Below are positions 10,377 through 39,775 of a stretch of 64,000 nt of DNA, piece by piece. This DNA is from a virus: positions 274,436 to 338,435 of IMG/VR virus record IMGVR_UViG_3300032334_001259. One strand, given 5' to 3'. The translations under genes and the position numbers were made by a program. Each line of letters begins with the position of its first letter. Within the stretch, counting starts at the first letter, position 1. Under the pieces are notes generated by a model. The model was not told the origin of the DNA and ran no database searches. It saw nothing but the letters and a program-made list of their open reading frames with translations.

Positions 10377-11429
10377 TTGTATAGCGTTTACCAACATTGG
10401 GACAAACTTAAAACGTGTGTAGTTGGTCAAAGTTATCCACCAGAATTTTATAGTTATATTACTAATCCCCGTGTTCGCAACGTTATGGAACGTATTGCCA
10501 TTGAGACAGAAGAAGACTATCAAAAATTAATTACATTATTAAAAAGTTTTGATGTTAAAATATTACGTCCTGAATTGAAAGATTCAATTGAATTTTATAA
10601 AATTGAAAATAAAAAATACTCACCTCCACCAATGAATCCACGTGATGATTCTGGCATGTTTGGAAATACTTTTTACATCAACAACCATTTTGATTTTTAT
10701 ACTAACATTATTAAAGATATACAAAATACTAATACAGTAATACAAGGTAAAAATATTAACACAGCCTCAATAACAAGAATAGGCAAAGATTTGTATTTTG
10801 GAACACCATCTGAAAAAGATTTATACAAATTTATTGAACCTAAGTTTGCACATAAAGAAAAATTTTTAAAACAAAAAGAAAAAATTTTAAAACAACATAT
10901 GGTAAAACAAACAGAGAATTTTCCATCTTATAGATGTCATGTTGTTAAAAGTGAAGGACACATTGATGGATGTTTTTGTCCAGTTGTTCCAGGTCTTATT
11001 GTAAGTTTATATAATGTTCAAACTTACAGTAAATCATTTCCTAAATGGGAAGTTATATATTTGCCAAATCAAAGTTTTAATGTAATTGAGTCTTTTAGAA
11101 AACTAAAAAATAAAAATAATGGTAAATGGTGGATACCAGGTGAAGAATTAAATGATGATTTAACTGATTTTATTGAATCATGGTTAAATCATTGGGTAGG
11201 ATATGTTGAAGAAACAGTTTTTGATGTTAATATGTTGGTAATTGATAAAAAAAATGTAGTTTGTAACAACTACAACAAAACTGTGTTTGATGCTTTTGAT
11301 AGGCATGGTATAACACCTCATGTAATCAATTTTAGACATCGTTATTTTTGGGATGGTGGTCTACATTGTATTACAAGCGATTTAGACCGTGATGGTGTTA
11401 TGGAAGATTATTTTCCAGAAAGACTTTGA
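10377..11429 (+). CDS. Amidinotransferase-family protein (GATM-like)
   Basis: 350 residues in the guanidino-group-modifying superfamily. Visible motifs: CVVG at the start, PRDDSGMFGN (Asp of the substrate pocket), EGHIDGCFCPVVPGL (catalytic His with Asp), and GGLHCITSD at the C-terminus (catalytic Cys). Members move an amidino group from arginine to an amine or hydrolyse guanidines. Substrate here unknown; glycine, lysine or a phage-made amine are options. It starts with TTG at 10377, with GGAGATGG upstream, right after the 164-residue gene. Ends converge on the cyclotransferase gene with a 22-nt overlap. Confidence 0.82.
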   Translation: MYSVYQHWDKLKTCVVGQSYPPEFYSYITNPRVRNVMERIAIETEEDYQKLITLLKSFDVKILRPELKDSIEFYKIENKKYSPPPMNPRDDSGMFGNTFYINNHFDFYTNIIKDIQNTNTVIQGKNINTASITRIGKDLYFGTPSEKDLYKFIEPKFAHKEKFLKQKEKILKQHMVKQTENFPSYRCHVVKSEGHIDGCFCPVVPGLIVSLYNVQTYSKSFPKWEVIYLPNQSFNVIESFRKLKNKNNGKWWIPGEELNDDLTDFIESWLNHWVGYVEETVFDVNMLVIDKKNVVCNNYNKTVFDAFDRHGITPHVINFRHRYFWDGGLHCITSDLDRDGVMEDYFPERL

Positions 11430-11887
11430 TATTCATTATATAAATCATAATAAGCATCGCTTACTTGTTGCGGTGTAATACCAGCATGACGAAATCCATT
11501 TAAGATAGACCTTACATAACTCATACTTGGTAAATCACCATCTAAACTTTCACGTGCTACAGGTGTCATATAATATACCCATGCTTCATAACGTTTTCCA
11601 CCACTTATAACTGGAACAGTTTTACGACCATAAAAACGTGGGTAACCTTCAACTGCATCTAACTCACGAATATAATCAGTTGGCAATTCCCAAAGAACAC
11701 CATCTACACTGCTACCACCACGTTCATAAACATTTGCAAATCTTGCAAATTCATAAGCATAATTTTGTAGCACTGCAGGTCCAATAAATTTAGCACCAGG
11801 CATCATTTGTGGATCAGTAAGCATACCATAAGCGAAGTAATAAATTGGTTCACCACCTGCTTCTGTAATAATATCTTTTACTTGCAT
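11408..11887 (-). CDS. Gamma-glutamylcyclotransferase-like, with capsid-targeting-like leader
   Basis: 159 residues. After a 12-residue leader comes the GGCT/AIG2 fold: YYFAYGMLTDPQMM (glycine loop), then LDAVEGYPRFYG with the catalytic Glu. These enzymes release 5-oxoproline from gamma-glutamyl peptides or glutathione. The leader MQVKDIITE followed by AGG matches the T4 internal-protein pattern, where the prohead protease cuts after I-x-E or L-x-E before A, G or S. A late box AATAAATA lies 4 nt before the ATG. It may be packed in the capsid and injected to alter host glutathione (inference). Confidence 0.78.
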   Translation of the reverse strand: MQVKDIITEAGGEPIYYFAYGMLTDPQMMPGAKFIGPAVLQNYAYEFARFANVYERGGSSVDGVLWELPTDYIRELDAVEGYPRFYGRKTVPVISGGKRYEAWVYYMTPVARESLDGDLPSMSYVRSILNGFRHAGITPQQVSDAYYDLYNEYQSLSGK

Positions 11888-22632: not shown

Positions 22633-23529
22633 ATGCGAATTAGTGAAATTATTGTTGAAGCACCAACTGATGTAAGTCGTCGTGGATTTCTTAAAGGATT
22701 AGCAAGCATTGCTGCATCTACTGCAATGCCACAAAATGCTGTTGCAAAAATATTAAAGGCAGTTCCTAAATCACAAATTGAAATATTAGACGATCTTTTT
22801 AAAAATGTACATCCAATTGTACTAGACACCGTAGGCAGTGAATATGGCAGGGTGGGAGTACACGGAGAACACGCTATAAGTGCTTTTACTAACTCAGAAT
22901 ATGATGCTTTACATAGATTGGTAAGACCTCTTTATAAAGAACAAGGTTTTGCAACTGAACGTGATGCAGTAAATGCATTAAAAAAAATAGCAACTATGAG
23001 CAGCAAAACTACTAATGAATATTACAAGGTATTTGAATACCTACTTGGAAGACCACTTGAAGTAAGAAAATTAGAAAACATACTGGCATCACATGGCACC
23101 AATGTAGACAGTTTTTTTGGTCAAATGATGAAGAATGAACCATTTGAAGAAGCGTTTATGCAATTATCAAATGAGGCTTATATGAATATTGGTGGCACAC
23201 GTTATTTTGAACCTATCGCAAATTTAAAACCGCTACCACCAAATTGGGCAACGGCACTTGGACAGTCAGTAAAACGATTTGCAAATAATGCAGGACAAGT
23301 AGCAAGATTTACAGGTAAAAACTATCTTGATAAAAAACTTCCTGATTTATCCCCTCAACAACTTGACCAGAGAAACGCAACTCAAGACAGGGTAGATAAA
23401 GAAAAAAAAGAACCACAAAAACCAAAAGAACTTGAAAAACCAAAAGATGATGAAAAGAAAATTACATCATATGGCGGTAGTGCAACTGGTAAGTTTGTAA
23501 AACCAATTGCTGCAAAAGTTAACGCTTAA
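22633..23529 (+). CDS. Capsid-targeted Tat-signal-like protein
   Basis: 298 residues. It begins MRISEIIVE-APTDV, a T4-type capsid-targeting leader with a prohead protease site after IVE, then SRRGFLKGLASIAAS, a twin-arginine motif with a hydrophobic stretch and AVA as a possible export cleavage. The rest is helical, then a charged, Pro/Lys-rich C-terminus (residues 250-285). If cut after Glu-9, the new N-terminus would start the Tat signal. This suggests an injected protein re-exported by host Tat. No catalytic motif recognised. Confidence 0.7.
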   Translation: MRISEIIVEAPTDVSRRGFLKGLASIAASTAMPQNAVAKILKAVPKSQIEILDDLFKNVHPIVLDTVGSEYGRVGVHGEHAISAFTNSEYDALHRLVRPLYKEQGFATERDAVNALKKIATMSSKTTNEYYKVFEYLLGRPLEVRKLENILASHGTNVDSFFGQMMKNEPFEEAFMQLSNEAYMNIGGTRYFEPIANLKPLPPNWATALGQSVKRFANNAGQVARFTGKNYLDKKLPDLSPQQLDQRNATQDRVDKEKKEPQKPKELEKPKDDEKKITSYGGSATGKFVKPIAAKVNA

Positions 23530-23550: not shown

Positions 23551-24264
23551 ATGCGTTTTACACAATTCAAACCAATAATTCTCGAAGGTGGAAATATGTT
23601 TAAGGGAACAACATCCTATGATCAGGCTGTTGTTCCACAAGTATTAAAGATAATTAATGATGCGCTAAGTGGTGCAAGACTTAAAGTTACGCCAGTTGGT
23701 AGTGGTGCAAATCCTGTCAAGGGTAAAATCAGTAACGATTTTGATGTTATGACAGATGAAGATGCTGTTAAGGCTTTCTTTAAAACCAATGATGCCAAGG
23801 AAGCACGTAAGAAATTAGCAGAATATCTTAAGAATCTTGGATTTCAAACTGCACAAAGTGGAATAATTGTGCATGTGTTGGTTCCTGTAGCCAATATGGG
23901 TGTGCAAGCTGATATTATGGTAACACCACAAGCAGATGCAATTGCCAAGTTTCATACTCATAATATTCCACAAAATAGCCCATTCAAAGGTAAGAACAAA
24001 GTTCTGACCATGGGAGCAATCGCTAAGGCCAAAGGTTATATGTTTAGCCCATGGCAAGGGTTGTTTAAACGCACACCAGATGGTAAAAAAGGTGAACTTG
24101 TAAGTAATGATATTGAAACAGTTGCTAAAGTATTACTTGGCAATTCCGCAACTGCCGCTGACTTGGGTAGTGTAGAAAGCATTCTTAAAAAACTTCCACG
24201 TGCAGATGCAGATAAACTTCTCGCAACTCTACGTGCTGATCCAAATTGGGAAGAACTTAAATGA
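23551..24264 (+). CDS. Nucleotidyltransferase-fold protein, capsid-targeted leader
   Basis: 237 residues. The N-terminus MRFTQFKPIILE-GGN fits the prohead protease site (I-L-E before G). The core has GSGANPVKGKISNDFDVM: Gly-Ser and two Asp as in the DNA polymerase beta superfamily, and VQADIMVT gives the third acidic residue. So it may transfer nucleotides to RNA or protein after injection. Stop overlaps the next start (ATGA). Confidence 0.68.
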   Translation: MRFTQFKPIILEGGNMFKGTTSYDQAVVPQVLKIINDALSGARLKVTPVGSGANPVKGKISNDFDVMTDEDAVKAFFKTNDAKEARKKLAEYLKNLGFQTAQSGIIVHVLVPVANMGVQADIMVTPQADAIAKFHTHNIPQNSPFKGKNKVLTMGAIAKAKGYMFSPWQGLFKRTPDGKKGELVSNDIETVAKVLLGNSATAADLGSVESILKKLPRADADKLLATLRADPNWEELK

Positions 24265-25613
24265 GAGCCTCGCAGTTTATTTCAGAGTCTAGAGGCATGT
24301 TTGGTCGTAAAAAGGGCGATCTGTATATAAATGACAATGGTCAAACAGCAACGTTTAATCATGCTGAAATGTTTCCAAATACTAAAACAAATGATGCTTA
24401 TAAAGATCATCCTACTGCTTTAATAGAAATAAATCGTATTGAAGCAAGAGAAGGTTCAAAAATTAGTTGGGTTAATGCTGAAAAACAAAATACCAATGCT
24501 TTTGCTATAGTTTATATGGATAGTGATGATGGCAGTAAAATGCTATGGGGTAGATGGTATAACGTTGTGCCAGCAAATGTAGATTCTACTTGGAAAAATG
24601 ATCAATTACCACAAGGTTGGGTATGGAGTAGTAAAACTGCTACAAAAGCAAAAAGTGGTATGACCCCACAAGATTTGATTAAAACTGAAAAAACATTTAA
24701 TAGTTCCGAAGAACTGCTACAAACTATTTCAAATAATGGTGCAAGTCCTGAAATTATGGAAGGATTGCAGATGGTTAGTGCAGGTTCAAAAGTTGTTGTA
24801 TTTAAAGGATTAGGTGATAAACTAACTAGTGTTCGTGATCATCTTGGTGAAATTATAACACCCCTTGCCCTCATTAGTGAAGTTATCAATGATACAAATG
24901 CAATTAATGCTAAAAAAGATATTTTAAAAACAGAATATAGTAGTTGTGCTATAAGATTTCCACAAAATAAAAATAATAATCTTGTTGATAGTGAATTTAT
25001 TGCTCCAAGTGGTGAAATTTTAGGAATAAGCACTAAAGGTAATAAAGGTGCAGATGCAAGTATTATTAATATATGGAATGCAATGAACAAACAAGAAAAT
25101 GTTTCTCTTGCAAAAAAATACAAGTATGCAGTAGACGTTGTTAGAATTATTGCAGATAACGGTCAAAAATTAGGTCCGCTTGTTCTTGGTGAACAATTAG
25201 GCATCATTGACAAATATTTAAAAGATGAAATATTACATCATATTGATAATAAAACAAATAAACCAGAAGAAATGAGTGAAAATGCTCAAAGATTGTTTAT
25301 TGCTTATAAAAGTGAAAGCGATACACCTGGTTTCAATATTGGATATGTATTATTAGCAAATTGCGCAAAAAAAGTTGCAGAAGAAATTAATAAAGATAAA
25401 AGATTTGAAGAAGCGTGTCGTGCTTTCTTAAATCAAGCAAGTATCATACAAGTTTATACTGATGCTAAAGCATCTGGCAATGATGTTCAAATTACAGGAT
25501 TTAGAAGTGTATATCCACCAAAATTTGAAGGTTCAATTAAACTTGAGGCCGGTAAAACTTATATGAGTACCGGCATCAAGGGTAAATTTGTTTTTAAAAT
25601 TGGTAAAGGTTAA
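24261..25613 (+). CDS. Unknown protein with capsid-targeting-like leader
   Basis: 450 residues beginning MRASQFISE-SRGMFG, again an I-x-E before S leader. No recognised domain. The central part (SCAIRFPQNKNNNLVDSEFI, APSGEILGISTKGNKGAD) hints at a nuclease-like beta core in which Asp/Glu and Lys follow, but this is too weak to call. It is the last gene of a three-gene head-cargo operon and convergent with the SpeD-like gene (4-nt overlap). Confidence 0.65.
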   Translation: MRASQFISESRGMFGRKKGDLYINDNGQTATFNHAEMFPNTKTNDAYKDHPTALIEINRIEAREGSKISWVNAEKQNTNAFAIVYMDSDDGSKMLWGRWYNVVPANVDSTWKNDQLPQGWVWSSKTATKAKSGMTPQDLIKTEKTFNSSEELLQTISNNGASPEIMEGLQMVSAGSKVVVFKGLGDKLTSVRDHLGEIITPLALISEVINDTNAINAKKDILKTEYSSCAIRFPQNKNNNLVDSEFIAPSGEILGISTKGNKGADASIINIWNAMNKQENVSLAKKYKYAVDVVRIIADNGQKLGPLVLGEQLGIIDKYLKDEILHHIDNKTNKPEEMSENAQRLFIAYKSESDTPGFNIGYVLLANCAKKVAEEINKDKRFEEACRAFLNQASIIQVYTDAKASGNDVQITGFRSVYPPKFEGSIKLEAGKTYMSTGIKGKFVFKIGKG

Positions 25614-29629: not shown

Positions 29630-31675
29630 TTACTTGGTGCTGGTTCTGTAAACAGTATCCCAACCAGCGCCTGGTGGGTTTGCAGCCATTTCTTCACAAC
29701 GTTCAATCCACATATCATAATATCCATCCATTTGCCCGTCAAATTGACCTTTAATTTTTTTACAAATTTCTATTGCACTTGTAAATCTTTGAGCACGATA
29801 GTCATCCATCATGTGTTTATGATTAGTTTTAGCAGCAAGATATGCAATTCTATCACTGCGTTGTTCTAATACTGTAAAGATATCAACACCTTCTTTTTTA
29901 CCTTTAACCGCAATGCAGTCTAATTCAAGTGTAAAGTAATCATCTTTTACATATTCATTTGTCTTTGGTCCAATAACCATAGCAACATGATATGGTTTAC
30001 TTTGCCCTTCTAAACGTGAAGCAAGATTAACGCCATCACCAAGACAAGTATAATCAAATCGCTGGCTACTACCCATGTTACCAACGACGACAGTAGCAGT
30101 GTTGATACCAAGTCCCATTCCAAAAGGTGGGACTCCCTCTTTGGCAACTTCTTCATTAAACGCATTTAAACTTCCTAACATTTGTAGTGCTGTCTTTACA
30201 GCGTTCTTGGCATGATCTGCATCATCAAGTGGTGCGTTCCAAAATGCCATTTGTGCATCACCGATATATTTGTCAAGTGTGCCTTCATTCTCTAATATCT
30301 TAGCAGTCATCGCTGTCATATAGCGGTTCATTATTTTGGTAAGACCTTGAACGTCACTACCGTAATGCTCAGAAATGCTAGTAAAACCCCTAACATCGGT
30401 AAATATAATTGATAACTCACGTGACTCTCCTCCCAATGCTAATAGTTCTGGATTCTTTTGAAGTTTTTCAACCATTGCAGGTGAAAGATAAGTTCCAAAT
30501 TGTTTCTTTATTTGTTGCTTTTGTAAGAACTCACTGACGAACTTAACACCGTAGGCATGCAAAGCGACCAAGATGATTCCAGCAACAGGAGCGGTTGCGT
30601 CCCATAACTGTAAAGCGTGATTAAACTGATAGAAAGAAAAAGCAATACTGCCGCCGACCAATACAATAACCGAACCAAGCCCAACATATACCCACCTCGT
30701 CAAGAATAATAATAACAGTCCACCAATTACGAGTGCAATAAGTTCTGCACCTTCTGCATAACTTGGACGTTCAATGTTAACCTTATTTGCCAACGTAGCA
30801 ATAATCTTTGCTTGTATATCTTGTGGATATACTGCACCAACAGCAGTAGGAACAGGGTTTGCAATACCAGCAGCACTAACACCAACAATAACAATTGCGC
30901 CATCAAACTTTTCTGGCATATTTGTAACGCTTACTTGTTTGTGTTGTTGACTTAAATCAATCCATACACGACCTAAACTATCAGTTGTGAATATATTTTT
31001 ACCAATACCAAGTTTATCAATTCCAAGTTCATTTAACTTAACTTTCATATTCTTTTCATTATAAAGAACACGAAGTGTTTCAAGACCGATTGTAGGATAA
31101 AGTTTACCACCACTGCCAACAAGCAGCGGAATACGACGATTAACACCATCTATTTCAGGAAATACGTTTGTTGTTCCAACACCAATTGCACTATTTTCTA
31201 AATCTGGAATGTTGGCAATAACACCAGGATAATTGTAAATTCTATCAATAAAATTACTGTTGACAATGGCGGCACCATTTGGGCGTGGTGTGTTCTTGCC
31301 TACGCTACTTGGAATATTACTTAAAATTACTGGATGATTTTTAAGAGTTTCAGCAAGTGCAGCGTCACCACCTTGGCGGTCTGCTTCTGGCATTAACACT
31401 GTCCAAACAACAATGCTTGCACCACGTGCATAAATGTCGTTAATTATATCCGCATATATCTGTCTATTAAACGGCCATTGTCCATACTTGTTAAGTGCGG
31501 CTTCATCAATATTAACTGTATAAATTGGGTTTTCAGTTTGTGTTTTATTTGTGATAAGTTGGTCAAAGTATTTTAACTTGACGCTTTCAACAAATGTAGG
31601 TGATGAAACTTTTATGGCAACTACGATTGCCAATGTTATGAGTGCAGTCCATGGGCTTAATAGAATTTTTTTCAT
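29630..31675 (-). CDS. CHASE2-domain adenylate/guanylate cyclase
   Basis: 681 residues from MKKILLSPWTALI. The N-terminal membrane helix, a periplasmic CHASE2 sensor (IYTVNIDEAALNKYGQWPFN, then DADLAET-like), further membrane helices near residues 310-380, and a class III cyclase: FTDVRGFTSISE (metal Asp), KYIGDAQMAFW (second Asp), GMGLGINTATVVVGNMGS, and CLGDGVNLASRLEG. It should make cAMP or cGMP in response to an external signal. Its own late box GGTAAATA lies 5 nt before the ATG (box 31681-31688). It sits next to FecR and curli genes, a pairing also seen in bacteria. Confidence 0.88.
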   Translation of the reverse strand: MKKILLSPWTALITLAIVVAIKVSSPTFVESVKLKYFDQLITNKTQTENPIYTVNIDEAALNKYGQWPFNRQIYADIINDIYARGASIVVWTVLMPEADRQGGDAALAETLKNHPVILSNIPSSVGKNTPRPNGAAIVNSNFIDRIYNYPGVIANIPDLENSAIGVGTTNVFPEIDGVNRRIPLLVGSGGKLYPTIGLETLRVLYNEKNMKVKLNELGIDKLGIGKNIFTTDSLGRVWIDLSQQHKQVSVTNMPEKFDGAIVIVGVSAAGIANPVPTAVGAVYPQDIQAKIIATLANKVNIERPSYAEGAELIALVIGGLLLLFLTRWVYVGLGSVIVLVGGSIAFSFYQFNHALQLWDATAPVAGIILVALHAYGVKFVSEFLQKQQIKKQFGTYLSPAMVEKLQKNPELLALGGESRELSIIFTDVRGFTSISEHYGSDVQGLTKIMNRYMTAMTAKILENEGTLDKYIGDAQMAFWNAPLDDADHAKNAVKTALQMLGSLNAFNEEVAKEGVPPFGMGLGINTATVVVGNMGSSQRFDYTCLGDGVNLASRLEGQSKPYHVAMVIGPKTNEYVKDDYFTLELDCIAVKGKKEGVDIFTVLEQRSDRIAYLAAKTNHKHMMDDYRAQRFTSAIEICKKIKGQFDGQMDGYYDMWIERCEEMAANPPGAGWDTVYRTSTK

Positions 31676-35660: not shown

Positions 35661-36191
35661 TTAGTGTTTAGTATAAGAATAACCACTACAAGGAGGAGTT
35701 AAACATTGTATATTCATATTGCTACTATCTGGTGTATTAAGGTTATCTTGCACAACAGTTGCACCAATATCACTACCACTCAAATTAAGAACAAAACTTT
35801 TATTAGCATCGCCAGTTTGGGTAATACTTGCATTATTATTGTTGTTTTGTGTTGTAGCATCCAAATTAATGGCGGCAGTATGATTACCGCTACCATTTTG
35901 TAAAATAGTAAGTGTGTTGTTATTGTTATTTGAAGCATTTGTATTAGTATTGTAAGTCCCATCATAATTTTTTCCTACTGGTGGTGTTCCAATAAAAGCA
36001 AGATGATCTCCGCTTCCTTCTTGAACTATTGTATGATTATTACTATCGCCTTTGTTTAGTAGAATTGCTTCACTATTTCCACTTGAACTTTGGTCTAGGT
36101 AAAAAATATTTCCATTTCCAACTTGATCAATATAAACACTGCCTGCGTAACAAGGTGTGGTAATCATTAGTAAGAATAATAATTTTTTCAT
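35661..36191 (-). CDS. Curlin-repeat protein, CsgA/B-like (short)
   Basis: 176 residues with signal peptide MKKLLFLLMITTPCYAG. The mature part has curlin-like units: VYIDQVGNGN, LDQSSSGNS, NHTIVQEGSGDH, NTLTILQNGSGNH, SITQTGDANK, each with a Q/N-x-G-x-x-N spacing, but interrupted by Asn-rich linkers. C-terminal Cys pair (QCLTPPCSG) is unusual for curlins. It follows the FecR gene by a 4-nt overlap. Confidence 0.75.
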   Translation of the reverse strand: MKKLLFLLMITTPCYAGSVYIDQVGNGNIFYLDQSSSGNSEAILLNKGDSNNHTIVQEGSGDHLAFIGTPPVGKNYDGTYNTNTNASNNNNNTLTILQNGSGNHTAAINLDATTQNNNNNASITQTGDANKSFVLNLSGSDIGATVVQDNLNTPDSSNMNIQCLTPPCSGYSYTKH

Positions 36192-37306
36192 TGTGATTGT
36201 GCAATCCTTATCAAGCTACCGCCAGCATGTTGAACATTTTGAATAAGTGTAGTTCCATCTTGTGTTAATTGTATAGTTGTTGCACTATCCTTATCAACTC
36301 CAATTTGGCTAAAACTATTTGCGCCAACACGATATAGCACAACGGTTTGGTCTTGTTTATAATATAATAAACCAGCAGCTTTATTAGGTTTATAATTTGG
36401 CAACATTTGATTTTCACCACCCAACATACTTTCAAGTAGTGCAGCATTTAGCAAGTCAAGTTGATTTACCAATAATACAGAATCAAGTTGGTTAATATCA
36501 AGTTTGTTGAATCCCATAAGATAATTCATATCAAGTTCATCAAACTTTAGAAAATCTTTATCAAGAAAATTAATATCAAGTGCAGTTTTTTGTGTTGTTT
36601 CATTTTCTGCTGATTTCTTTGGTGGGGTTAAAATTAACATATTATTAATTTGTTCTTGATTTAACACAAGTATAACGGGTTTAGTTGGATTCTGTTCTTT
36701 TGCACTTGTAGTTGTTGCTTGAAATGGTTTATCAAGATGAACTGTACCCATATCAGTAGTGACATCAATCTTTCCAGTAACACAATCTTTTTCAATATTT
36801 TTGTAACCTACAGGACAGCTTGGCAACAGAACTACAAGACTGCGACCTAATTCATCAACTGTCATACTAAAGTCAGTTCCACGAACACCAATGACAGCAG
36901 TTGGTGTTTCAATTTTAACTTGCTGTGGATTTTCTTTTGCTATTTGTCCACTGGCATAGGTTGCAGTTCCAATAGCAACTTTAATACCAAGTTTGCTTGC
37001 ACTTGCATTATTTGGATCATATACAAAGTCATCAATTACAAGTTTACTTTGTTCAGTGATTTGCACTTTGGTATCATCTTCGAAAGTAATACCTACACGT
37101 GCACGAGCGGTGACAACGGCATCATTCATTTCAACGCCGCTGTTCACCGCACTTGGTATACTTTCTTTATCTCGTTGAATTTCAGTTGGTCCAGTTTGTT
37201 CAGTTACTTTACCAACAGCCGCCCAACAATCAGTTACTGCTGTTAACAGTAATACTGTTGTTAGAACCGTTGCTCTTGATATCAACTTTACTATCGATTG
37301 TGCCAC
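36188..37306 (-). CDS. FecR-domain protein with curlin-like tail
   Basis: 372 residues; N-terminal signal segment (VLTTVLLLTAVTDCWAA) and FecR domain with the hallmark PTAVIGVRGTDFSM near residue 135. It then has a Leu/Asp-rich part built of LD-x-N-x-LD units (residues 245-285) and a C-terminal tail (TTLIQNVQHAGGSLIRIA) like a curlin repeat. FecR proteins transmit or scaffold surface signals. Start uncertain: the frame begins 76 nt inside the upstream curlin gene, with ATG at 37306 or TTG at 37285. Paired with the CHASE2 cyclase nearby. Confidence 0.78.
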   Translation of the reverse strand: MAQSIVKLISRATVLTTVLLLTAVTDCWAAVGKVTEQTGPTEIQRDKESIPSAVNSGVEMNDAVVTARARVGITFEDDTKVQITEQSKLVIDDFVYDPNNASASKLGIKVAIGTATYASGQIAKENPQQVKIETPTAVIGVRGTDFSMTVDELGRSLVVLLPSCPVGYKNIEKDCVTGKIDVTTDMGTVHLDKPFQATTTSAKEQNPTKPVILVLNQEQINNMLILTPPKKSAENETTQKTALDINFLDKDFLKFDELDMNYLMGFNKLDINQLDSVLLVNQLDLLNAALLESMLGGENQMLPNYKPNKAAGLLYYKQDQTVVLYRVGANSFSQIGVDKDSATTIQLTQDGTTLIQNVQHAGGSLIRIAQSQ

Positions 37307-37916
37307 CTTGTGTCACTCCAACGTTATTTGAACTACCTGTTACATCAACTTTTGCATCAAAACCAGTAGCGCCAGCAGGACCACTTTGTTGAACGCTTAC
37401 TACATTACTGTCACCAGTTGCTTTAATATCAGCCTTTGCACCTAACATATTAGTAGTGCTACTGTTGATACTTGCATTATTATTGTCACCAGTTACAGCA
37501 ATACCCATAGTGCTTTTTGCACTTGCAGTCACACTTAATGTATTTCCACTACCAGTTGCGTTTGCAGTAATGCTTGTATCAGTACAAGTTGTTGTTGGTG
37601 CGGCACCGCAAGCAACATTCACAGTGTTGCTATCACCAGTTACAGTGCTGTTTAAACTACTACTTGCACCTTGCATATTAACATTATGTGTATTTTGGCT
37701 TCCTACTTGATCAATGCTTACAGTTTGCGTATTACCATTAAAAGTGGCACGAGTCGTGTCATTACCGACTTCATTACCACTACCTGTTTGAGTGATGCCG
37801 ATAGTGCTTCCACTACCAACTTGGTCGATATACACGTTATTGGTTGTACCTGCAAACACATTGCTTGCATACAGCAACCCAACAGCCATTAATGCTGTTC
37901 TTAATACCTTATTCAA
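37230..37916 (-). CDS. Curlin-repeat protein, CsgA/B-like (long)
   Basis: 228 residues, signal peptide ending SNVFAG. Repeats such as NVYIDQVGSGSTIGITQTGSG and VSIDQVGSQNTHNVNMQG match the curlin S/N-x-x-x-x-Q-x-G-x-x-N pattern; about seven more relaxed Asn/Ser/Thr-rich repeats follow. Start is TTG at 37916 behind GGAGTAGG, and the ribosome site lies in the palindrome ACTCCTAAAGGAGT. Its 3' end overlaps the FecR start by 76 nt in another frame. Confidence 0.8.
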   Translation of the reverse strand: MNKVLRTALMAVGLLYASNVFAGTTNNVYIDQVGSGSTIGITQTGSGNEVGNDTTRATFNGNTQTVSIDQVGSQNTHNVNMQGASSSLNSTVTGDSNTVNVACGAAPTTTCTDTSITANATGSGNTLSVTASAKSTMGIAVTGDNNNASINSSTTNMLGAKADIKATGDSNVVSVQQSGPAGATGFDAKVDVTGSSNNVGVTQGGTIDSKVDIKSNGSNNSITVNSSN

Positions 37917-37941
37917 ATGCCTACTCCTTTAGGAGTATTGC

Positions 37942-38751
37942 TTACTTTTTATCGGAAGCAAAACCCCATAAACCTTTATTTGCACCCTGTTTGATCATAT
38001 CCACAACGGCTGCTTCTGTTGCCAGACGCACAGCATATGTGGTGGGTTCGTTGACATTTGCACCTGCTTCTAATTGAATACTCATAGTTCCTTGGTCAAG
38101 AAATGTTAGTGCATTTCCATTTCCACCAGTGCTTAAAATAGTTTTTGTGGCACCAGCACTTACAAGGACTTCACCTGTATGAACACTGATTAATCGTAAA
38201 ACAACTGTGACTACATCAGTTCTATATTGTTGACTTATTCCAATACCTAACATGGCAGCTCCTGCACCACCACTTTGAACATTCGTATCGTAACCTACGA
38301 TACCACCTTCTACCATTACACCAGCAATAAGCATTGGTGATAATGGTTTTGCATCTTTACCTTCATAAGTTTCACGTTGATTACGAATAAGTTGACGTTC
38401 TTTAATAAGATCATCTAAACCCACACGTTCTACAACTTGAAACCATTTACCACGACCAGCATCTTGCAATGCTTTAATTAAAAATACTTCACCACCTTGT
38501 GTTACTGCACTGCTTAATACACTAAATTTGTCATTTTCTTTACGTTGTCCAGTCTTATCATTAAAACCATACATGGCAATAGTGATAGGTGGACCCGCTG
38601 GTGGTGGCATACTTGATAATTCATTATATGTACTTTTTTTAATTATTTGTGGCATGGGCGTAGCCTTTTCAGGAACCTTTGCCTCATATGGTATGGTTGT
38701 ATTACAACCAGCTAACATCATTGCCATAATTGAAAATACTATCTTACGCAT
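37942..38751 (-). CDS. csgG: CsgG, curli secretion pore lipoprotein
   Basis: 269 residues, the length of E. coli CsgG (277). Lipoprotein signal MRKIVFSIMAMMLAGC (lipobox LAGC, Cys-16). Family features: PITIAMYGFNDKTGQRK, GKWFQVVERVGLDDLIKERQ, AGVMVEGGIVGYDTN, QQYRTDVVTVVLRLISVHTGEV. The protein forms an outer-membrane nonamer that exports curlin subunits. Start overlaps the csgF stop as TAATG, so they are cotranslated. Confidence 0.92.
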   Translation of the reverse strand: MRKIVFSIMAMMLAGCNTTIPYEAKVPEKATPMPQIIKKSTYNELSSMPPPAGPPITIAMYGFNDKTGQRKENDKFSVLSSAVTQGGEVFLIKALQDAGRGKWFQVVERVGLDDLIKERQLIRNQRETYEGKDAKPLSPMLIAGVMVEGGIVGYDTNVQSGGAGAAMLGIGISQQYRTDVVTVVLRLISVHTGEVLVSAGATKTILSTGGNGNALTFLDQGTMSIQLEAGANVNEPTTYAVRLATEAAVVDMIKQGANKGLWGFASDKK

Positions 38752-39200
38752 TAGAACTTGAAACTCCCTATTGGAACTGTGACATCAGTCCGATTACCAG
38801 TAGCATCAATGACAGTAAGAGTAATAGTTTGGTTAACAGTATCTTTTAACCATGTTAAAGTGCTACCCTCAAACTGCATTGTACCAGTGGTTGCCCCATC
38901 AGCAAACATAGCATTGCTTAATTGCAAACTTAATTGTGCATAGATACGGCTTTCCAGATTGTTGAGAAACTTATTTAAATTTGTGTTATTTGCCTTTGAT
39001 TCAGCTGCTTCTTTTGCAGCTTTTTCTTCTGCTTCACGTGCTTTACGACGAGTGTATTCTTCATTTTCAATAGTCAGTGCATGACTACTGTAACCATCGC
39101 CGCTAAACTCTGGATTTTTAAAACCAAAAACCATTCCACTTGCAAAGACAGGTGTAGAAAACATCATTCCAGTGATGAAAAAAGGCACAATTTTACGCAT
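38751..39200 (-). CDS. csgF: CsgF, curli nucleation/anchoring factor
   Basis: 149 residues, signal peptide ending VFASG. The mature N-terminus VFGFKNPEFSGD matches CsgF (F-x-N-P-x-F), the segment that binds the CsgG pore, and the C-terminal part (GSTLTWLKDTVNQTITLTV, DVTVPIGSF) is the beta-rich CsgF tail. A middle stretch (EYTRRKAREAEEKAAKEAAESK) is a charged insertion not in E. coli CsgF. The ribosome site AGAGGATT lies in a hairpin (AATCCTC/GAGGATT) just before ATG 39200; a late box is at 39216-39223. Confidence 0.85.
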   Translation of the reverse strand: MRKIVPFFITGMMFSTPVFASGMVFGFKNPEFSGDGYSSHALTIENEEYTRRKAREAEEKAAKEAAESKANNTNLNKFLNNLESRIYAQLSLQLSNAMFADGATTGTMQFEGSTLTWLKDTVNQTITLTVIDATGNRTDVTVPIGSFKF

Positions 39201-39243: not shown

Positions 39244-39771
39244 TTAAGACAATTTCTTTATAGGTCTGCGAAATTCAACTATTGATGCTACAGGATATGC
39301 GCTTATGTTAACACTGTCGTCTTGGTTTCCACCAAGAAGTTGAACATACTTTATACCATTATCAAATGTCCAACCATAAAAGAAAGCGACATGGCGACCA
39401 CTTCCACCGCTACGGCGCATTAAGACAATATCGCCTGGTTGGGGGTCTGTAACTTTTATTCCGTAGTTATGATAACTTGCTGCACTTAAATTACCAGTGG
39501 AATCATAACCAGCACGTTCTAATACATAGTTTATAAAACCAGCACACCAAGGAATTTTTACAGGATCAATATCTAATATGGCTTGTAATTCTTTACGATT
39601 CTTTTTTGCATCATAACCATTATAATTCATGGCTATTTGCATTATATCACCACGTGTTTCACCAAATGTTAAACCATTGGAGTCCCAATTAAATGGAATC
39701 GTTAATTCAAATGCGCTTGCACTATTGAAAGGTATTAGACAAATACCAATTATTGCTAATAATCTTTTCAT
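39244..39771 (-). CDS. Secreted cysteine peptidase/amidase, TIGR02594/CHAP-like
   Basis: About 175 residues. Signal peptide (RLLAIIGICLIPFNSASA), then IPWCAGFINYVLERAG (catalytic Cys), QPGDIVLMRR and GRHVAFFYGW (His): the layout of NlpC/P60-CHAP family murein amidases. It may open the murein for the curli machine or release virions. The ATG at 39771 is preferred since a late box AATAAATA (39776-39783) lies 4 nt upstream; another ATG lies one codon before. Confidence 0.75.
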   Translation of the reverse strand: MKRLLAIIGICLIPFNSASAFELTIPFNWDSNGLTFGETRGDIMQIAMNYNGYDAKKNRKELQAILDIDPVKIPWCAGFINYVLERAGYDSTGNLSAASYHNYGIKVTDPQPGDIVLMRRSGGSGRHVAFFYGWTFDNGIKYVQLLGGNQDDSVNISAYPVASIVEFRRPIKKLS

Positions 39772-39775
39772 CATA

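Follow-up and report, generated by a model that had tools for sequence, protein, structure and literature searches.

A capsid-targeting-type leader followed by a Tat signal in a T4-like jumbo phage: a candidate route of two-step protein delivery

The window analysed here is a 64-kb stretch of DNA, bases 274,436-338,435 of IMGVR_UViG_3300032334_001259, a 338,435-base IMG/VR virus record that is the genome of a T4-like jumbo phage. An ORF on its plus strand encodes a protein of 298 aa, the N-terminus of which reads MRISEIIVE followed by APTDVSRRGFLKGLASIAASTAMPQNAVA (the ORF start is given as MRISEIIVEAPTDVSRRGFLKGLASIAASTAMPQNAVAK). The codons for residues 1-29, MRISEIIVEAPTDVSRRGFLKGLASIAAS, occupy positions 22633-22720 (+). 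The parts of this ORF and further genes with leaders or leader-like starts are as follows:

22633-23529 (+): ORF of 298 aa comprising leader, Tat signal and cargo, from the ORF listing
22633-22659 (+): capsid-targeting-type leader MRISEIIVE, residues 1-9, assigned by the enriched N-terminal motif and the T4 gp21 rule (PMC9026906)
22660-22746 (+): Tat signal APTDVSRRGFLKGLASIAASTAMPQNAVA, residues 10-38, twin arginine at 22678-22683; TIGR01409 above the cut-off, PF10518 slightly below
22747-23526 (+): predicted exported cargo, residues 39-298, with a Lys-rich C-terminus and no known domain
23551-24264 (+): downstream neighbour with the leader-like start MRFTQFKPIILE then GG; NTase-like motif DFDV read by eye
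24261-25613 (+): neighbour with the leader MRASQFISE then SR
11408-11887 (-): gene with the leader MQVKDIITE then AGG and a gamma-glutamyl cyclotransferase-like domain

Elsewhere the window carries a curli-like gene cluster, recognized by Pfam matches and curlin repeats:

35661-39200 (-): the cluster as a whole
38751-39200 (-): CsgF (PF10614, 7.8e-13)
37942-38751 (-): CsgG (PF03783, 4.6e-45)
37230-37889 and 35661-36191 (-): two curlin-repeat proteins
36188-37129 (-): FecR-domain protein

The curli genes are adjoined by a gene the product of which has a CHAP/NlpC-P60 domain and a Sec-like N-terminus (39244-39774, -). At 29630-31675 (-), the phage encodes a sensor-type cyclic-nucleotide enzyme, a fusion of CHASE2 (PF05226, 3.6e-37) with an adenylate/guanylate cyclase (PF00211, 2.1e-18).

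The record contains the T4-type head genes, namely a major capsid protein (phrog_138, 6.9e-99), a scaffold protein (phrog_10922) and a head-maturation protease (phrog_207, 2.6e-58; G000 145,948-146,571). Among isolates, the PA5oct group of Pseudomonas jumbo phages has the closest capsid protein (68.5% identity). T4 internal proteins carry the capsid-targeting sequence (CTS) as roughly their first 10 residues, and cleavage by gp21 occurs after L/I-x-E (PMC9026906). The leader of the 298-aa protein is likewise a short N-terminal stretch ending in this type of motif (MRISEIIVE before A), and a cut by the head protease is predicted after E9 (I-V-E then A). In its strict form, M[KR]x(2-4)[EDQ][FIL][ILV]x(0-1)E, the leader begins 11 of the 378 ORFs of the 338-kb record, compared with 0.11 expected from residue shuffles, and it was found at none of 1502 internal Met positions. 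Leaders of this type also stand on many proteins of the record that have no Tat signal. Because the next two genes are leader-led as well (MRFTQFKPIILE, MRASQFISE), the 298-aa gene sits within a short cluster of leader genes. A longer cluster of about seven such genes, among them one starting with MRYTDFKAIINE, of the same form as MRFTQFKPIILE, is present in a relative (L308).

Some information on virions comes, by proxy, from the isolate PA5oct. Two of its proteins have near-identical leaders, MKINDIITE (the gene adjoins that of the portal) and MKIKDILVE, and its record flags both as detected in the virion by ESI-MS/MS. The enrichment of leaders among the MS-detected proteins is weak and in the right direction: it is not significant for strict leaders (2/3 versus 90/420, p = 0.12), and the counts for a looser motif were 11/92 detected versus 15/331 (p = 0.012).

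The segment behind the leader passed the curated Tat model TIGR01409 of NCBIfam (18.3 bits at residues 14-38, cut-off 16.7) and remained just under the threshold of Pfam PF10518 (19.8 versus 22.7). A strict Tat motif within the first 30 residues occurs once among the 378 ORF starts and in 0 of 500 shuffles. The twin arginine lies at residues 16-17 of the uncut protein and would lie at 7-8 after cleavage at E9; the signal could still function if the leader were not cut off. The h-region is only mildly hydrophobic, and a signal-peptidase site is predicted, by eye, at NAVA then K39. As the leader (11 versus 0.11 expected) and the Tat signal each exceed chance expectation, both halves are real, and the preliminary description of one protein with a leader followed by a Tat-like signal is thereby borne out.

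An identical copy of the ORF is present in a second, 90-kb IMG/VR contig (L002). Homologues of the protein were not found among 50,697 phage records, and beyond the identical contig only a distant local similarity was detected, with 42% identity over 55 aa between the N-terminal Tat/cargo region and the region at and behind an internal Tat signal of another contig (L227); the equivalent segment is leader-adjacent in the 298-aa protein. Searches with the cargo gave no convincing Pfam or PHROG match and no PDB sequence match, and an AlphaFold model of the single sequence (pLDDT 41) was uninformative.

Searches with a leader+RRxFLK DNA pattern and a Tat profile revealed more than a dozen unrelated leader+Tat families, comprising more than 15 unrelated proteins, in IMG/VR contigs. 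They include LysM-transglycosylases and a Tat-lipoprotein, and the Tat-lipobox form is present in L197 and L361. When the strict pattern was applied to 84,980 prokaryote genomes, it matched two contigs of one Rickettsiales MAG, which encode the same 94-aa protein as a viral contig; since a second leader gene lies nearby on one of them, both were read as phage contigs. The other match, one convincing bacterial Tat protein (L323), is a chance case. Thus, with one chance case beside apparent phage contigs among the prokaryote genomes, the combination is characteristic of phages. All cases with a leader-adjacent or an internal Tat signal (see below) are metagenomic, and their occurrence is patchy. 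The T4-type protease was found in the larger of these records (G000, G007, G008, G012, G013, G075, G082, G085 and G086); G079 (111 kb) and G084 (96 kb), both partial, gave no match to it. A search of 19 T4-like isolates with the Tat model yielded one convincing protein, in Sinorhizobium phage Phosso, and this protein is leaderless. A match in Xanthomonas phage XbC2 (W05) was rejected as noise, being a 32-aa frame only.

A different arrangement was uncovered by a scan for ATGA...RRGFLK[GA]x[GA] and by Tat-profile searches of whole records. Long proteins of T4-like contigs contain a Tat signal inside, with the twin arginine at residues 42-461, whereas bacterial Tat signals, in a sample of 39 genomes, mostly lie at most about 18 residues from a start. 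Sixteen distinct internal cases were kept after removal of near-duplicates (L312, L403) and mis-assigned proteins (L397, L210). In 13 of the 16, a [LIVMF]xE motif ends 1-6 residues ahead of the internal RR, against a null frequency of 0.106 over all positions of these proteins (p = 8e-11); the remaining three have no cut site. The leader-adjacent set was left out of these statistics because the cut site is built into its search pattern. Examples of the junction are ELDE then IDRRGFLKGLGAAA (L310, in a 354,959-bp record), QIDE then IDRR (L379, 285 kb), PVDE then DISRR (L362, 524,565 bp), AVDE then ADMSRR (L383) and, with a lipobox, NVNE then AGMNRRGFLKGAAATTAAGVAGC (L361). The Tat segments consist of S/T/N-RRxFLK, an Ala/Gly-rich h-region and AxA or a lipobox, and they passed the curated Tat model. 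Many of the proteins with internal signals are leader-led too (MKANEFLTE, MKSKDFLNE, MRITEIITE, MKITDIISE). An internal Tat signal 1-6 residues behind a cut site is what the idea that the cut exposes the signal predicts, and the junctions therefore support this idea. Two large, pelagiphage-like proteins (L137, L046), in which an internal RRxFLK follows GGR(V/I)G(F/L)..GGM and no E-type cut site is present, look like a separate case.

The sequences around the junction have been shuffled as modules. An M48 peptidase module with an intact HExxH lies directly behind the leader in L417 (MRANEFINE then DINRRDLLKG) and is internal in L418 (NELAE then AISRRDLLKG) and L407 (PVDE then DISRRGFLKG); in these three unrelated upstream contexts, the E of the cut site is invariant. 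The site is also conserved between the homologues L227 and L309 (LDE and IDE at the junction), and the homologues L398 and L403 have kept VNE then A and lost the nearby Met. Named domains upstream of internal signals are cytoplasmic, namely sigma-70 region 4 (L227), a cytidylyltransferase-like domain (L412) and a HAD-type domain (L408). Those downstream are mostly of the envelope type (LysM+SLT, M48, GH19, TonB/TolA C-terminal), others being DUF6321 and GP88, the latter located behind a further LNE/VNE then A site in L398/L403. With cytoplasmic domains before the signal and mostly envelope-type domains after it, the domain content fits the topology.

Three individual proteins were observed alongside. 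In the L412 polyprotein (G081), a cytidylyltransferase-like domain is followed by the cut site DIDE then DIS, a Tat signal and a TonB/TolA C-terminal domain (PF13103, 3.8e-17); it is a candidate for a phage-made periplasmic TonB/TolA mimic. A glucosaminidase of G000 (81,327-82,205; L008:1327-2205) has the leader-like start MLLSELYDDQLNE and then a weakly hydrophobic segment, ALKRLAMAGTVATGIGTAGISA, and possibly unmasks a Sec/SAR-type signal in an analogous way. Within the leader-gene cluster of L308 (8016-8759), MRSEEFIVE is followed by GFKHNLAAATMLGLSSLSNPTA and a GH19 domain, that is, by a Sec-like segment behind a leader.

According to the reading that we prefer, the 298-aa protein would be an internal head protein, the first ~9 residues of which would target it to the prohead core. 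The gp21-type protease of the phage would cleave after Glu-9 inside the prohead, and the mature protein, starting with the Tat signal, would ride in the head and enter the next host with the DNA. There, the host Tat translocase would export the folded protein to the periplasm or to the outer face of the inner membrane. In this position, the cargo may act early on the envelope. In the relatives, the polyprotein would start with a leader and continue with a cytoplasmic domain, a protease site, a Tat signal and an envelope domain, so that one packaged precursor would give one cytoplasmic and one exported piece. The simplest reading is that leader and internal sites are both cut by the head protease, which would leave a mature piece with the Tat signal at its front. 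By analogy with T4, we assign a probability of about 0.52 to a packaged internal head protein that is cut by the head protease, injected and exported by Tat in the next host. Export in the next host is judged most likely because the internal proteins of T4 remain in the head and are injected. We give slightly less than even odds to the further proposal that the head protease acts as a switch, turning a masked internal Tat signal into an N-terminal one and a packaged polyprotein into cytoplasmic and host-exported effectors soon after injection. The preliminary description had suggested that an injected protein is exported through the host Tat pore. This suggestion is partly supported: leader enrichment, the gp21-type protease and the recurrence of the architecture speak for a capsid-targeting leader ahead of a Tat signal, and the internal junctions, the decisive addition, speak for exposure of the signal by the cut; as to export in the next host, the junction data fit export in the producing cell equally well, and packaging, cleavage, injection and export, as well as any function of the cargo, are what we infer from these features.

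The main rival places export in the producing cell: precursors would be cut in the proheads, and the Tat pieces would leave through prohead pores and, late in infection, be exported by this cell, so that the release of envelope-active cargo, coupled to head maturation, would aid timed lysis. The junction of cut site and Tat signal is accounted for equally well. Propeptides and core fragments of T4 do leave the head once gp21 has cut (PMC9026906; PMC5694885), and several of the cargos are peptidoglycan hydrolases (LysM-SLT, GH19). However, large folded domains would have to exit the prohead, cargos with M48, TonB/TolA, GP88 or DUF6321 domains are not lysins, and T4 internal proteins and CTS fusions remain in the head and are injected (PMC9026906). 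We consider release in the producing cell unlikely.

Somewhat less probable still is ordinary Tat export of the protein as made, in which the leader would be part of the Tat n-region and neither packaging nor a cut would be needed. For the 298-aa protein alone this is possible, since without a cut its n-region would measure 15 residues, a length that falls in the range of the bacterial signals from the 39 genomes, and the leaderless Tat protein of Phosso, a T4-like isolate, indicates that Tat can serve such phages without packaging. However, Tat signals at residues 42-461 and their cut sites would be left unexplained, as would the same leader on many Tat-less proteins. Internal translation starts do not appear to fill this gap: no start codon preceded by an SD was found ahead of the internal signals, a weak test given that most of the proteins' own starts also have no SD, and for 8 of 18 internal signals a start codon of any kind is absent within 15 codons.

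A role of the RRxFLK segments within the head, in core or DNA binding or in attaching the prohead to the membrane, instead of in Tat export is improbable. T4 proheads do assemble at the inner membrane (PMC5694885) and a basic character of the segments would suit binding to DNA or core, but the full Tat anatomy, the match to the curated Tat model and the mostly envelope-type cargo domains argue against such a role. Chance or an annotation artefact of metagenome assembly is highly improbable: the sequences are from single contigs and most have no isolate, but the 298-aa gene is on two contigs and the recurrence of the architecture in many unrelated contigs (junction p = 8e-11) already disfavours this reading.

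If export in the next host is true, pre-made phage proteins would reach the host periplasm via the virion and the host Tat pore, timed by the head protease, and a class of unannotated jumbo-phage genes would gain functions. Early roles at the envelope could be a block of superinfection (TonB/TolA-like cargos) or the remodelling of wall and lipoproteins (SLT, GH19, M48), and CTS-Tat fusions could serve to bring folded proteins into the periplasm. The preliminary description knew of no account of a two-step delivery of this kind. Searches of open-access literature, with most subscription papers outside it, brought up no account of the leader+Tat combination, which is not proof of novelty. That we are dealing with a two-compartment, two-step route of protein delivery not described before is a tentative conclusion, a little short of an even bet.

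Several known systems share parts of this arrangement. SAR endolysins are phage lysins that are exported by Sec, not Tat, and are not packaged in heads. They resemble the proteins described here in that a phage enzyme uses a host export route, and some of the present cargos are wall hydrolases as well. Bacterial Tat substrates (TIGR01409/PF10518, including Tat lipoproteins) have the same RRxFLK, h-region and AxA or lipobox, but their signals are N-terminal, whereas in the phage proteins a head leader, or an entire domain plus a protease site, comes first. In the Streptomyces Rieske protein, a polytopic membrane protein, an internal Tat signal moves the C-terminal domain without any cutting (PMC13186574), and an uncut internal signal is thus not impossible in principle. 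The phage proteins differ from it in that the domains identified ahead of the signal are soluble and are separated from the signal by a protease site; the Rieske protein undergoes no release cut. The ejection proteins of the giant phages phiKZ and SPN3US also reside inside the head and are cleaved by a protease related to gp21, in some cases at more than one position. They differ in the cut motif (S/A-x-E) and the capsid lineage, and no Tat signals are reported for them in the literature examined. There is also a likeness to T4 IPI-III and Alt, with an N-terminal leader of about 9-10 residues that ends in I/L-x-E, the T4 CTS being cut by gp21, with T4-type protease, scaffold and capsid genes, and with diverse cargo behind a conserved leader. 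The T4 internal proteins act in the cytoplasm, with no export signal described in the cited literature, whereas in the phages analysed here a Tat signal follows 1-8 residues after the predicted cut or lies deep in a polyprotein.
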